Part shown: one piece after another, positions 7,012 through 59,813 of the stretch
Numbering within the stretch: the first letter of the stretch is position 1
How the letters are laid out: each line of letters opens with the position of its first letter
NCBI RefSeq assembly: GCF_000001735.4
Contig: NC_003070.9
Coordinates: 22,305,971 to 22,369,970 of the forward strand
Source of the DNA: Arabidopsis thaliana
Taxonomy: Eukaryota; Streptophyta; Magnoliopsida; Brassicales; Brassicaceae
Direction: 5' to 3'
DNA length: 64,000 nucleotides
The notes under the pieces: model-generated
The model's input: the letters and a program-made list of their open reading frames with translations, nothing else
What the model was told of the DNA's origin: nothing
Databases searched by the model: none
Position numbers and translations under genes: made by a program

Positions 7012-8455
7012 TGAATGCCATAAGAGTCACACTTAAATGTGGTGAATCTTTAGTGTGAGTCATGCGGGTGTTATATCATATTGTTGGAGGATTGTCTTTC
7101 TTGTTTCAAGTTTTCTGCAAAAACATCATTTCATTTGTAACGCTTTGATGGTTTCTTTTTTTGTTTTGTAGTGCTAAAGGCTGTCATGATTCAACCATAT
7201 GTTGTGATTATGATACATTTCATCAAATTTATTGTTAATTTCATGATCGAAGTAAAGAAAGCCTGTAATGAAACTAAAAACTTCGTTCACATGTCTTTAA
7301 AACATTAATTAACGACATGATTCATCTTTTGGGGAAAAAAAAGAAAATAAAAAGAGCTCAGTACAAGGCTTATATAACATCCGAAAGTTCAGATGTGTTC
7401 AATGGACCCAACCATTGCAGAAACCTAAATCCTCACAGCTCAATGCACCAGCCGGGAATCGAACCCGGGTCTGTACCGTGGCAGGGTACTATTCTACCAC
7501 TAGACCACTGGTGCTACTTGCCTATGTTGTTTATTTTAGTTCATCTTGTAATTTGTAAAATAGCCCTAGCGAACGTTGTTTTGAGTCTTTTGACTTTGCT
7601 ACAACGATTTATTTTAGTTTAGCTCATTCTTATACAATATAGCTATTCAAAAGACTTAAAAGGTGATTGTGGTGTCAATTAGCATTGTCTTTAGCAATGT
7701 TGGTGCAAATTCAACTCTCTTTTATTAATTCCAATAATAAATCCAAAAAATATCTACCGACGTAAATGAATTGAAACAAAAACAAAAGATAGTATAAAAC
7801 AAAAACATCAGGTCCTGCACAAATCTCTTCCACATAAACTCCTAAAGCACTGACTTCATTACATGCCTCTCCAAAAAATCCCGTATAAAAGAAAAAAATA
7901 ATGCAATTCCTATATAGACAAATCGGTCTGTAAAAAAAAATACTTGATTTAATTCAGGTTGGATAAAGAAGATCCAAAACCAACAATACTTGCATATATA
8001 CTGTATATGATGAGTTAAAGGAATGCATTATAGTTCATAGAAATTACACTAGTTAATCAATTAATAGTGATTAGTGCATCATAAACCTCTAATCCAAACA
8101 CTGACAAGATTTAGTCGCGCGGTAACAAATTTCTAGTTGCACCTTCTTACTTACAATTTCTGTTTTCAAGAAACATAAACCAAAACAATTTGGACCATTA
8201 TGATATATGTGAAACAATCAAACTATATGTTATACAAACAATATACATATACTGCTTCAACAAAGCAATTAGGCAGTTCTTGTTTTTGATTTCTCTCTTA
8301 AGAGTCTGTCTTAATTACTTTAGAGAAGGAAAAAAAAAGCACTTTCTAATCTTCTAAACAGTCCACAACACTTTCACACAAACGGGACAAATCAATAGAG
8401 TCCGTATGAAGTACTAATATTATTTTTTCCTAATGATTTTGCATTCCCCTGTAGG
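7012..8455. other. Intergenic with one tRNA gene
   Basis: 3' flank of the F-box gene, then tRNA-Gly, then about 900 bp of AT-rich sequence up to the stop of the convergent polygalacturonase gene. I see no other gene here. Confidence 0.6.
7444..7514 (-). tRNA. tRNA-Gly (anticodon GCC)
   Basis: 71 nt, reading GCACCAGTGGTCTAGTGGTA at the 5' end on the minus strand. The acceptor stem GCACCAG pairs with CTGGTGC, with discriminator A. The D-arm carries the A-box TGGTCTAGTGG. The anticodon loop CTGCCAC gives anticodon GCC. The T-arm contains the B-box GGTTCGATTCC. There is no intron, and no encoded CCA. No TTTT run is visible within about 25 bp downstream, so the Pol III stop is unclear. Confidence 0.96.
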
Positions 8456-30815: not shown

Positions 30816-31563
30816 AATGGAATTCAAGAGATTTTTTACCAAGTCATGATAGAATCAGCAGTTGTAAGTGGCATCGATGAAGAAGCTCGATCACGGACAT
30901 GACAGCGAAGATGTCACGTGAAGCCAATGCTTCTTGATACTTTAAGAGCAGTAGGAGAAGTTAATCAAATCTCACTTGTCTCACTTGTTTCCTTTTTCAA
31001 TGCATTCATAAAAATATTATTTCGTGTGTACACTTCCACTGTTTTACACAGATATGTAGATCAATAATTGTTTATGGTGGAGACCAAGATTAAAAGAAGA
31101 GAAGAAAATATTAAAGTTTTTGTCTTTTTCACTCAAGTCTTTGAACTTTCTCAAGACAAGTGCTGAGTGCTGACTTGGGAAGAGAAAACGACAGAAATTG
31201 GAGGGAAATGCCAGAGATCATTGATGGTATTGGAGGAACATAGTTTCAAGTAAACATATTTTTAATTCAACTAATCTGTTATTCGATTTTCTGCTTCAAG
31301 CAATTATTTCCCAATCTCTCTCGTTGAGTAAGAGGGGGATGGTTCGAAATGAAAAAAGGATACAACTTGTAAAAAAGAATTGTATAACTCAATTATCAAA
31401 ATCATATCAGTTATAACAAGCACCGTATTTGGTAGACAAAACTTGAAGTTTAAAAAGCACATAATTAACTCACTCTCAACCTATGTTTCTTCATCTATTC
31501 ATCGACATCCAAGTAAAAAAAGATGAATCTTTCTGGCTAACCATATTGGGCAATACAGCAGTT
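30816..31563. other. Intergenic upstream of the LRR kinase gene
   Basis: Promoter of the LRR kinase gene and 3' flank of the exon-array gene, both on the minus strand. AT-rich; I see no gene or repeat. Confidence 0.55.
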
Positions 31564-33543
31564 TCAATCCTTAGTTTGACGCCTTTTCTTTCTAGATTTT
31601 TGTGATGCATCTTCGTTTTCTCCTTCCTTAGTCGATGGAATCTGGATATTGGTAAGAAAGAATGAATCGATTAGGGGTTTTGACAGACCAACAATGGTTA
31701 CAAGGATACAATTATGAGCAGGCTATTTACCTTTTCCTGTTTTTCTGATCTCTTAAGCTGTCTTCGTGAGCTACTGTTTCCTTTTATCTGCTTCTCCTAA
31801 AATTAAGATTTTTGAAACAATTTGTTAGGTCTCAGCGGAAGAATAACAAAGCACTTGTTTGCATTTGCTAGAATTCAAAAAGAAAACCTGTGATGGTGTC
31901 TCTGGATTGTCAACTTCTTCGTTTTCTCCATGTTTGGTTAATGAACCCTGGATGTTCATATTAAAAAGACGAATCAATAAGGTTTCAGACAAACCATCCA
32001 TCGTCACAAGGTTACAGTAATGAGCAGGCTACTTTTACCTTTCCCTGTTTTTCTAATCTCTTACGCTGTCTTCGTGCTCTACTGTTTTCTTTTATCTGCT
32101 TCCCCTACATTTAGTAGTTTTGCAAGAATTTGGTTGAGTAAATGACTCATGGGAAGAACACAAAGCACTTGTTGACATTTGCTCGAACGTCAAAAAGAAA
32201 AACCTGAGATGGCGTCCCTGAATTGTCAACCTCTTCGTTTTCTCCATGTTTGGTCGATGAATCCTGGATGTTCATATTAAGAAACGAATAGATAAGGTTT
32301 TTGACAGGTCAACCATGGTCACAGGGTTATAGAGCAGGCAAATTTTACCTTTTCCTGTTTTTGTGATCTCCTAAGCTCTCTCCGAGCTCTTCTGTTTCCT
32401 TTTATCTGCTTCTCCTACATTTAGGATATTTGCAAGACTTTGGTTAGGACTCATTGGACTAACACAAGCATTTGATGGCATTGTCTTAAATCTCACCTGA
32501 GATGGCGTCTCTGGATCTTCAACTTCTTCGTTTTCTCCATTTTTGGTCAATGAATCCTAGACGTTTATATTGAAAACACGAATCAATTAGGTTTCCAACA
32601 AACCAACCATGGTCACAATGCTTCAGTATTGAGCAAGCTACATTTACCTTTTCCTGTTTTTGAGATCTCTTTCCCTGTCTTTGTGATCTTCTGTTTCCTT
32701 TTTTCTCCTTCTCCTACATTTAAGATTTGTGCAAGAATTTGGTTAGGACTCATTGACAAAACAAAAAGCACTCGTTGGCAAATTCTCTAATGTAACCTGA
32801 GATGCTGTCTCTAGATCGTCAACTTCTTCGTCATCAGTTCTAATCTTTCCTTCTTTCACTAATTTCTCCATACGAGCATGCTTCTGAAATGAGTCAAACG
32901 ACAAAAAATACTATCTCATCAACTACAAGACTGATGAGGAAAAGCTCAAAACTAATCCCGTGCTTATCATCTACTACTTGATTCCAAAAAGGACCAAACA
33001 CTCAAATGCTAATTCAAAGCTACCTAATTTACCTTTGATGAAACATGTGCTTGCATTGTGTTCTCATTCAAGCAAACAACGGTTGGACAATATCTGCATT
33101 TATAAACCGATTTGGATTGTATCATACAACCGAGAATATAGTTCTCTTCCTCTTCTTCGGGTGGTTCTTCTAAAAAACGATTCATTGACATCTTCTCCAA
33201 TGTCCCACCATAGTCATCAGCATCAGAGTTATCATCACCATCATCAACATCAGCGTCTTCGCCAGCAGCTATAACAGAGAATAAGCAAAGATTTTACCAA
33301 AGGTTCTCTGAGAGTACAATCACAAGAGAACTAAAAGAGATAATTGCTCAATTGAAGAAGCAAACCTGGGGATTCATCATCTCCTGAATCATCACCGTCC
33401 TCGGAAACTTCTGCAACAGAGTCTTCTTCTTCAGATTGTTCTGATTCTTCCGTCTCAGGATCAGAGTCAGAAGAGAAGCACGATGAATCGGATCCACTGT
33501 CTTTATCACCATGCTCAAGCTTGTAAAATCGTCTCTTTATCAT
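31564..33543 (-). CDS. Acidic zinc-finger protein with tandemly repeated small exons, 11 exons, about 340 aa
   Basis: Exons: 33543-33366, 33268-33033, 32883-32797, 32713-32648, 32556-32497, 32414-32349, 32263-32204, 32104-32039, 31947-31888, 31796-31731 and 31641-31564 (TGA). The start is the ATG at 33541-33543 (MIKRRFYKLEHG). Residues 15-90 are very acidic (E/D/S). A C2H2 finger, YKCRYC then QAHVSSKKH, is split by intron 2. The rest alternates 22-codon exons (EKQIKGNRRARRELRRSQKQ type, basic) and 20-codon exons (DSLTKHGENEEVDNPETPSQ type, acidic). There are four of the former and three of the latter, plus degenerate end copies. All introns after exon 2 are phase 0. Function is unknown; nuclear location is likely from the basic clusters. 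At1g60640 from memory. The exon model is my own reading. Confidence 0.82.
31731..32713 (-). repeat. Tandem intragenic duplication, four units of about 300-310 bp
   Basis: Each unit holds one 66-bp exon, an intron, one 60-bp exon and an intron. The right borders of the 66-bp exons (32713, 32414, 32104, 31796) are spaced 299, 310 and 308 bp. Introns as well as exons are alike between units (for example GCACTTGTT...ATTTGCT and ACAAACC...GGTCAC...GAGCAGGC recur), so whole genomic segments were duplicated, not only exons. Confidence 0.88.
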
Positions 33544-34118
33544 TTTTACTTCGTGTTTACTCTACAGAGACAAAACCCAAATTTAGAATTCGAAATTCTC
33601 CAACAAATCAAAAGTAAAGGAGCAAACTTCGGATTAAAGTAAATAGAAAAGAGGAGACTTTCGTACCGTGAGTTCCGCAGAAGAGAGCTTGGAGACTGAA
33701 AAGGGGAAAGCTTTGCTAAAGAGAAGGGTTTTAGGGTTTTTAGGTTATTTTTGTAAATTAAGTAACTTTTATAAGGGTGTTTTAGTCATTGAGTGGACAA
33801 CATTTTATCCCAATAAATATACTTATTGAGTTGAAGTTAATCCTCTGCAGTTATTTCATTGTCCATCACCAATCGCCAAAACCGCAGAAAGGTCTGACCT
33901 TTGGATTAGCGGTGAGTAATTAGGGTTTATCATATCGAAATTTCTAGGGTTTCTTTTTCTTACTTCGGATTTCAGCAAGTTTATTGACCCGAATCTTTGT
34001 TTCAATAGAATTTTTTTGAGTTGTTTAAGTAAGAGTTGGAGTTTCGCTTTGATTTTTCGAGTTTGATTTTGTGGGCTAACTATGTTTATGCGTTTTTGGT
34101 TTCAGTGAGAGTTTCACA
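33544..34118. promoter_or_regulatory. Head-to-head promoter of the exon-array gene and RZ-1b, with telo-boxes
   Basis: 575 bp lie between divergent ATGs. TTAGGGTTT occurs at about 33729-33737 and at about 33919-33927, and CTAGGGTTT at about 33951-33959. Telo-boxes (AAACCCTA) are typical of translation and RNA-processing genes. Shared regulation is inferred from layout only. Confidence 0.5.
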
Positions 34119-36178
34119 ATGAAAGATAGAGAAAACGATGGAAATCTTGAGAGCAGAATCTTCGTGGGAGGGTTATCGTGGGATGTCACAGAGAGACAGC
34201 TTGAGAGTACCTTTGACCGCTACGGGAAAATCACTGAGTGTCAGGTCTTGTATCGATTCTCGTACTTTATGATCAGAAGTCTCAGAGACTCGTTTTGAAA
34301 CCTGTGTTTAGTGAATGATACCTCTGAGATTGTAGGATAGTTTTGTTTGATGAACCTAAGACTCATCTATTCTGTAGAAGAGCACACACAGATATTGAGG
34401 TTTATTGACTTGTTGAAGGATGCAGTCGAGGAATTAGTAGAGCTTTCTTAGGAAGTAAACATGCATCTCAACCTCCTCTTGATCTGAAAATCTGTTTGAG
34501 AGCCGTATGTTTAGAAATGCAAGAGTTTTGAGATAGATCATGGCTCTTGTCTCAGCATCAGTGCAGTAATTTTGGTTTGACGTCACTGTGTTTTGTTGGA
34601 TATTATGATTAAATTGCAGCTGAGCTCTCTTTTCAGTGGTTTTGACACCAATCAGGACTAACCATCTTTTATTCTCTTGCCTGTGGTATCTGCTTTAGTA
34701 GTCACTGAGATGGTTTTCTTGTACTCATTCATCATGAGCCACTAGTTGTTGTAATTGTAAAAGTACAGTTATTGGCACATGTAAGCATCTCTAAGTAGTC
34801 TATCAATACACCAAGATGATAAGTTTCTGGTCAAAAATGGTCTTGATCAGAATATTAGTCTTCTTTTTTAGGTCTTGATCAGAATATTAGTCTTCTTTTT
34901 TAGTGGAATTAGCATGGAAAACGCATTCCTGTGGATTTGTTGTGGGAAACTGATTTGAGGTAACAGGTCTGTTGTAAGGGTTAAAAGTATGGTTGGCTAG
35001 AGGCTAATCTCCAACATCGTTTTGCTAGGATTATTGTTGTGGTGATACTTCTTGTGGATTAGTATTTCTACAAGTATGCAGCTGTAGTTTGACTTTGTGT
35101 TGTGTGATTCTAAGGACTTGAAATGAAGTAAATTTGTGAATCTTGCTACCGTCTTCTGTTTGCTTGTAAATGTTCTGAGTTTGCCACTTCTAGGACATGC
35201 TATATGAGAGATAGGAATGTAATACATCTGCTTATTTCTTAACTCTAATGTAACATCTGGTTCTTAGTAATATATCTTGTTCCTGGCTCAATATGCATTT
35301 TAATAACATTATTGGTCTTCTTTGCGTACTTGTAGATTATGGTGGGGAGAGATACTGGGCGTCCACGTGGTTTTGGGTTTATTACATTCACTGATCGCAG
35401 AGGAGCTGATGATGCAATTAAGCACATGCATGGAAGGGAGTTGGGCAATAAGGTCATCTCCGTGAACAAAGCTGAGCCCAAAGTTGGTGGAGAAGATGTA
35501 GACCAATTAAAGAAAGGTGGAGGCTATTCATCTCGAGGGAAGGGAACCGAGGATGAGTGCTTTAAATGCAGACGCCCTGGTCATTGGGCTCGAGATTGCC
35601 CATCAACTGGTGACGATCGAGAACGGTTCAGAGTTCCCCTTGCGATGCGCTCTCGTATTGGAGACATAGATGGACACCGAGATCGCTATGGAGATCGTGA
35701 TCTGGAGAGGGAGCGGGAGCGGGAGCGTGAGTTTGACCGCTACATGGATGGACGCCGTGACCGAGATGGGGGACGATATAGCTACAGGGACCGCTTCGAC
35801 AGTGGAGACAAGTATGAGCCTCGTGATCACTATCCATTTGAGAGGTTTGTAGCTCTTGTCCTCAGGTCTAAATAAATGTTCCAACATGTGTTCTTTTAGG
35901 AAAGTCATGACCTTTTGATGTATTAACAATGTAGATACGCACCACCAGGAGACCGTTTTGTGAGTGATAGGTATGGGATGCCTGAACATCATCTTGAGAA
36001 TGAATATCGCGGGAGAGAGAGAAGCTATGACAGGGACAGATACGCAAGGGATACAAGTGACAGATATGGAGATATGGGACCGATACGCGATGAGGGAAGA
36101 CCCTACAGAAGCAGACCAGGTCCTTATGACCGTCCTAGCCGTCCTGGAGGCAGACCTTCATCATATGAACGTTGGTAG
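34119..36178 (+). CDS. RZ1B: Glycine/RNA-binding protein with RRM and zinc knuckle (RZ-1b), 3 exons, 292 aa
   Basis: Nuclear RNA-binding protein; the RZ-1 group acts in splicing and RNA metabolism and binds SR proteins. Exons: 34119-34244, 35336-35844 and 35935-36178, giving 292 codons plus TAG. The RRM spans about residues 12-90, with RNP2 IFVGGL and RNP1 RGFGFITF. The CCHC knuckle CFKCRRPGHWARDC lies at about 119-132. After that the chain is dominated by R/D/E dipeptides (DLERERERERE, DRYMDGRRDRDGG) and ends PGGRPSSYERW. Intron 1 is long (1,091 bp) and splits the RRM just after its second strand. It carries a 32-bp tandem repeat. At1g60650 from memory. Confidence 0.95.
34839..34902. repeat. 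32-bp perfect tandem duplication in RZ-1b intron 1
   Basis: Two adjacent identical copies (34839-34870 and 34871-34902) beginning GGTCTTGATCAGAATATTAG. It ends in a T-run and AG, so each copy carries a possible 3' splice site. Identity suggests a recent event. Confidence 0.9.
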
Positions 36179-58240: not shown

Positions 58241-58440
58241 ACCTCTTGCAAGAAGATTCTAAAAAAGACATTAGTTGGAATAACAATTAATAATAATATA
58301 AAATTTGTTGTTTTTATAGAAAAGTATACATCTAAGATAACCTCTTGCAAGAAGATTCTAAAAAGACTGTAGTTGGAATAACCAATTAATAACAGTATAA
58401 AATTCGTTGTTTTTTATAGAATAGTATACATCTAAGATAA
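58241..58440. repeat. Tandem duplication, two units of about 99 bp
   Basis: Unit 1 starts at 58241 and unit 2 at 58340, both with ACCTCTTGCAAGAAGATTCT and ending AGTATACATCTAAGATAAC. A few substitutions and 1-2-bp indels separate them (roughly 90 percent identity). They are non-coding and AT-rich. Confidence 0.9.
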
Positions 58441-59813
58441 CTAGATAAGGTGAATCCGATCATCAAATGTTTTGCTTTTTCCAAATACTAATTAATATTC
58501 AATCGGATGAAAGAAATAAAAAATGATAGTGTTTGAAATTAACCAAAACTACTACATGAGTTAAGTTGTTTGAACAGATGATATCTTCACCATAAAGGCT
58601 AATCAAACGAGGTTTAGAGATGTTAAAAGGGATAAGTTAGGCTTACTTGATCTGCAAGTCATCATCTTTCAAGAACTTTTTCTAACCATTATTCCCTTAT
58701 TAATATGGTTCCCCTTAAGAAAACAATATATGCTGCTGGGTCATGTGTGTCGTATCTCACATCCTAAAATGGGATAACCTCGGACCACAATATGTCTAAG
58801 TGAGACTAACCTAAACGACTTGACGTTGTTATATAGGCTTCTCAATTAGTCTCTTATATATTTCTTGAGTTTTCGTTTTTGTTTATCTCTGATATATACA
58901 TTGTTATATAGCATAGGCTTCTCAATTTGTTTTTAAGAGCTGTTACTTATAGAGTAAAATCAATATAAACTAATATTTAATTATACAGTAAAATCTTTAT
59001 AATTTTTTTTTTGATAAATTTAATAAATAGTATAAATTAGCAAAACTCCCTATTCCCAAATCAGGACAAAGTAGAAACGAACAAAAATTGATAAAATAAT
59101 AAGACAATATTTTTAAAATAATATCAATGTAAATATATGGTCCCGTCAAATAAAATAAATTTCTAATCATGTAAAGATAATTTTTAGTATGTTTTTTATT
59201 TAAATGAAATTCTATTAGATCTCACCAATAAATTTTCTTATATAAGTAAAAGTTATGTTGTGATTTTTAAACTAGGTTATTGTTTTATCGTCTATAATAG
59301 TTTCATAAAAATAATCAAAAATGTTTGTCAGTTTTTAAATTTTAAATATGCAGATTTTCATTTCAATAGTCATACATGCTGTTCAAATACAATAATTGAT
59401 GTCATTATTCACACAATTTTAAATTTATTGATATCGATTGTATTTGTGAGTTCATATATTATCTTTGTTATTTATTGCAAAAAAAAAAATTCTCCTAAAT
59501 ATTAATGGTTCAATTCTAAAACAACAAAATTTATAACATCCAAAACACTTAACAATGAAAACAAATTCTCTATAAATTAACAAATATTACAATAAATTAA
59601 CAGCCCATAAGTCTTTTTGGGCTTGTGTGCCTCTTGATCTGTGCGCCGGCTCTGTTTATATGTATAAAGTGTTCAGAGAGTAGATTCTCCTACAAATAAG
59701 TTAAACCTCCAACTAATCAATTTATAATTACCAATGAAAAAAAATATCAGAAAACTCCCATTACCAATAATTAAGACACCAACAAAAAGGTTTCTATATT
59801 TAGAAGGAGAAAT

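Follow-up and report, generated by a model that had tools for sequence, protein, structure and literature searches.

Fibrillar collagens, with their 54- and 108-bp exons, and haptoglobin Hp2 are cases of in-frame exons that were multiplied or fused by intragenic crossover. Head-to-tail exon copies inside one gene are likewise described for tandem exon duplication of the Dscam type (Dscam, PMC1397879; passages of PMC2674458). Finally, acidic and basic units alternate in treacle (TCOF1) and Nopp140, a passage of PMC9133508 placing the 11 central repeats of treacle in exons 6A-16. The Arabidopsis thaliana locus studied here, located in a stretch of 64,000 nucleotides analysed as a whole (the window), resembles each of these systems in part. 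It shares head-to-tail exon copies with the Dscam type, but the repeated element is a pair of exons, this gene is not known to use mutually exclusive splicing, and the acidic exon of the pair would itself be a fusion of two exons. It shares alternating acidic and basic units with treacle and Nopp140, but without a LisH domain (Pfam) or serine clusters (by eye), and without support for selection on the alternation (simulation, dN/dS). In contrast to collagen and Hp2, each breakpoint would fall within a separate coding exon, and a 7-bp match would mark the join.

We consider the best explanation, with a probability of about 0.8, to be a fusion between the last exon and exon 3, followed by amplification of the resulting exon pair, which lengthened the charged, low-complexity tail encoded by an apparently single-copy gene. 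Growth of a gene by internal duplication is an already known and fairly ordinary kind of event. What the locus would add is a readable record of how one duplication, with both breakpoints in exons, can give rise to a frame-neutral exon whose later multiplication is unhindered, and a comparison of this locus among Brassicaceae would give each step in order.

The predicted gene lies on the minus strand (33543..31564) and comprises 11 exons (Table 1) with an open frame of 340 codons, all 10 introns being of the GT-AG type. In this gene model, exons 3 to 10 start and finish in phase 0, in agreement with the frame symmetry proposed in the preliminary description of this DNA. Any of these exons could thus be removed or added without a frameshift.

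Table 1. Exons of the predicted gene, with their positions in the window.
Feature	Position	Strand	Content	Evidence
Exon 1	33366..33543	-	start codon and acidic, serine-rich head	open frame, GT-AG boundary
Exon 2	33033..33268	-	remainder of the acidic head, followed by the greater part of the C2H2-like finger	
Exon 3	32797..32883	-	end of the finger; last 36 nt resemble the second half of the acidic exons (putative parental half 1)	
Basic exon B1	32648..32713	-	66 bp	
Acidic exon A2 (putative mosaic)	32497..32556	-	60 bp	
Basic exon B2	32349..32414	-	66 bp	
Acidic exon A3 (putative mosaic)	32204..32263	-	60 bp	
Basic exon B3	32039..32104	-	66 bp	
Acidic exon A4 (putative mosaic)	31888..31947	-	60 bp	
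Basic exon B4	31731..31796	-	66 bp	
Last exon	31564..31641	-	first 32 nt resemble the first half of the acidic exons (putative parental half 2)	

The existence of four tandem units of about 300 bp, derived from duplication of an exon pair, had been proposed beforehand and is borne out by all approaches used, namely a direct-repeat search, TRF, the gene model and exon comparisons. A 140-nt core occurs in four copies spaced by 308, 310, and 299 bp, and TRF returns a single array of 3.8 copies with a period of 299 (31610-32780, score 1250), which has the top score of the three TRF arrays with a score of at least 100 within the window. None of 200 dinucleotide shuffles of the region 31500-32900 yielded an array with a period of at least 100. 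The array had been described as containing four 66-bp basic exons and four 60-bp acidic exons; the lengths are exact and the first count holds, but there are just three 60-bp exons, the fourth acidic element being formed by the opening 32 nt of the last exon. Two kinds of introns separate these exons, one of 82-99 bp and the other of 85-91 bp. With neighbouring exons homologous to one another, their introns homologous too, and all copies running head to tail, the locus has the arrangement of intragenic tandem exon duplication, and the symmetric phases of the predicted gene model conform to this as well. The intragenic duplication of the exon pair is real and old.

The composition of the acidic exon bears on how the array began. 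Using the consensus of the three 60-bp acidic exons as a reference, the last exon matches 24 of its first 32 nt and then only 5 of 28, as expected by chance; past nt 32 it encodes a unique basic C-terminus, followed by the stop. Conversely, exon 3 matches the consensus at 31 of its last 36 nt and at a chance level (6 of 24) just upstream. Exon 3 and the last exon had each been read as carrying a degenerate 20-codon copy of the acidic exon, and they prove instead to hold complementary halves of it. A mosaic of the last exon followed by exon 3 accounts for 48 of the 60 consensus nucleotides, versus 37 when exon 3 is taken by itself, 29 when the last exon is, and 37 when the order is reversed, and none of 20,000 codon-order permutations equalled it. 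The breakpoint may be placed anywhere in nt 25-32, over a 7-bp ACGAAGA common to both sources. The resemblance extends to the introns, as the intron after exon 3 shows 68-77% identity to its three counterparts, and that before the last exon 67-76% identity to its own. Judged from these alignments, the acidic exon bears a clear signature of fusion between pieces of two neighbouring exons, and the simplest history would make the flanking pieces its two parents rather than worn copies.

Under this reading, the ancestral gene would have had a single unit, in the order exon 3, basic exon, last exon. A single in-frame tandem duplication, with one end within the last exon and the other within exon 3, would then have joined the two at the ACGAAGA match. 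The product would have been a novel acidic exon of 60 bp, in phase 0 at both ends. Unequal crossing-over among the resulting units of about 300 bp may subsequently have raised their number to four. As the exons are symmetric, each extra unit would have lengthened the tail by 42 residues with the frame intact.

The units have since diverged. Between-unit intron identity is 64-81%, Jukes-Cantor intron distances range from 0.22 to 0.49 over the six pairs of units, and the longest stretch of exact identity within a pair spans 14-26 bp. The three possible unit topologies receive 5, 4, and 3 supporting sites. Assuming 7e-9 to 1.5e-8 substitutions per site per year, the array would be very roughly 7-35 million years old, and it probably dates from about the time of the split from A. 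lyrata or from before it. Because the diverged units are poor substrates for unequal crossover, copy number is not expected to change easily at present. Variation in unit number among accessions is possible, but it is not predicted, contrary to what had been suggested.

Constraint on the repeated exons is weak. They vary somewhat less than the introns, variable columns amounting to 19/66 in basic exons versus 74/164 in introns (Fisher p 0.026) and to 11/60 in acidic exons versus 55/166 in introns (p 0.032), although these tests are weak since they assume independent columns. The dN/dS ratio of the repeats is 0.80 (bootstrap 0.46-1.82, a range that spans 1), with 0.44 for acidic and 1.05 for basic exons. 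Frame and splicing appear to have been kept; exact residues do not.

These results bear directly on the proposal that the tail is a charge-pattern scaffold, selected for its charge blocks like the acidic and basic repeats of treacle or Nopp140. Net charge does alternate along the repeats (+7 -6 +7 -4 +8 -4 +5) and at their flanks (-6 before them, where exon 3 ends; after them, -3 followed by +6 within the last exon), and each repeat block corresponds to one exon. However, charge and amino acids are retained no better than in stop-free neutral simulations: basic exons exhibit 15 charge-class changes versus a simulated mean of 9.7 and 19 amino-acid changes versus a mean of 15.8, if anything an excess of change, while acidic exons are average (3 charge-class changes versus 3.5). 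The dN/dS ratio does not differ from 1, and the serine clusters reported for treacle in a passage of PMC7957619 are absent here by eye. The scaffold interpretation is thus unlikely, and the tail most likely serves as a spacer or for nuclear targeting, under loose constraint, rather than as a precisely selected charge pattern.

Alternatively, the tandem exons might act as an isoform generator, phase-0 cassettes being skipped in different numbers to vary the length of the tail. The symmetry of exons 3 to 10 would allow this, and three of the four acidic elements are followed by donors (GTTACA, GTTTTT, and GTTTTC) that are far from the donor consensus, GTAAGT. On the other hand, intron retention, which is common in plants, would meet a stop in six of the eight introns of the array, and the lengths of the remaining two are not divisible by three. 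We hold such a role to be improbable.

The flanking pieces themselves could have begun as whole copies of an older acidic exon and have decayed since, in which case five complete acidic elements were once present in the array. Each flank does resemble the acidic exon, but the similarity ends at the same unit position on both, and the halves that are missing complement each other and show no more than chance identity (the 6/24 and 5/28 given above). As gradual decay predicts neither feature, we find this history quite improbable and retain the fusion of the last exon with exon 3. A more elaborate scenario, in which a microhomology-joined fusion made the symmetric exon pair and this pair now lets the plant adjust the length of a charged nuclear tail through splicing, strikes us as highly doubtful. 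Lastly, it is most unlikely that the 3' part is a non-coding or pseudogenic repeat whose exons are chance open frames: dN/dS is indistinguishable from 1 and 10% of neutral simulations give stop-free exons (so that open frames alone are not striking), but the introns of every unit retain GT and AG, exon lengths are exactly 60 and 66, and the exons, besides being less variable, contain 0 gap intervals versus 10 in the introns.

Upstream of the repeats, the protein starts with an acidic head (net charge -33 over 105 residues), and it ends with a basic stretch. The head had been credited with a C2H2 finger, which is upheld as to the Cys/His pattern (C-x2-C-x13-H-x5-H, the second His being encoded in exon 3) but falls short on the Pfam score, with 18.7 bits for zf-C2H2_jaz (PF12171) versus a gathering cut-off of 22.6 bits. 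With its two Cys and two His, the finger may plausibly be called C2H2/JAZ-like, and no more. None of the five Pfam families matched (E up to 10) is a domain of the treacle/Nopp140 group. The protein is probably nuclear, and a nuclear or nucleolar role may be suggested.

Telo-box and TGGGCY-type promoter words are linked to ribosome-related genes. A telo-box-like AAACCCTA lies upstream of the gene, on its strand, at 33732-33739, and the window contains 12 AAACCCTA words versus 2.1 expected; TGGGCY words show no enrichment in the window (29 versus 27.6 expected). The head-to-head intergenic region (33544-34119), shared with an RRM/zinc-knuckle gene, carries three AAACCCTA on the minus strand (33732, 33921, and 33945).

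The window spans positions 22305971-22369970 of what is probably chromosome 1. The gene is probably AT1G60640 on the basis of the gene order at this locus and of its position, since it is flanked by an RRM/zinc-knuckle gene and an LRR receptor kinase gene. The former is the head-to-head neighbour (open frame 35339-35875, with a start read near 34120), and RRM plus zinc knuckle is the architecture given for RZ-1B, AT1G60650, in a passage of PMC11477454; the latter adjoins the predicted gene on the other side. According to a passage of PMC6502316, Brassica rapa Bra031491, 'corresponding to AT1G60640', responds to 24 h of salt with an induction of more than 40-fold, and At1g60640 serves as a COSII marker in a passage of PMC3426812. 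The passages of these two papers that name the gene do not mention the repeats. Similarly, no paper on these repeats appears among the matches listed, as judged by titles and the openings of abstracts, which is not thorough proof of absence.

Searches for relatives point to an apparently single-copy gene in the genome containing the window (119.66 Mb, seven contigs). At E up to 1, the three matches are all inside this gene, and at E up to 10, eight of nine are; these searches score the best candidates exon by exon and could miss a distant paralogue. The ninth match was considered as a second copy and is unconvincing (E 0.03, 27% identity, three stops). A query of 82 of the 340 residues gave 32 pattern matches in bacterial and archaeal contigs and 6 in viral contigs, with no relative among them. 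Among solved structures, the whole protein gave one match (E 0.38) and a 71-residue part three (best E 0.25), all unconvincing.

An Rfam scan of the window produced no match in this gene; its sole match is a tRNA gene at 7444-7514 on the minus strand (62.5 bits). Two other tandem repeats were also observed in the window: a 32-bp unit in two tandem copies (100% matches) at 34839-34903, apparently intronic in the neighbouring RNA-binding protein gene, and a 99-bp unit in two tandem copies (91% matches) at 58241-58441.
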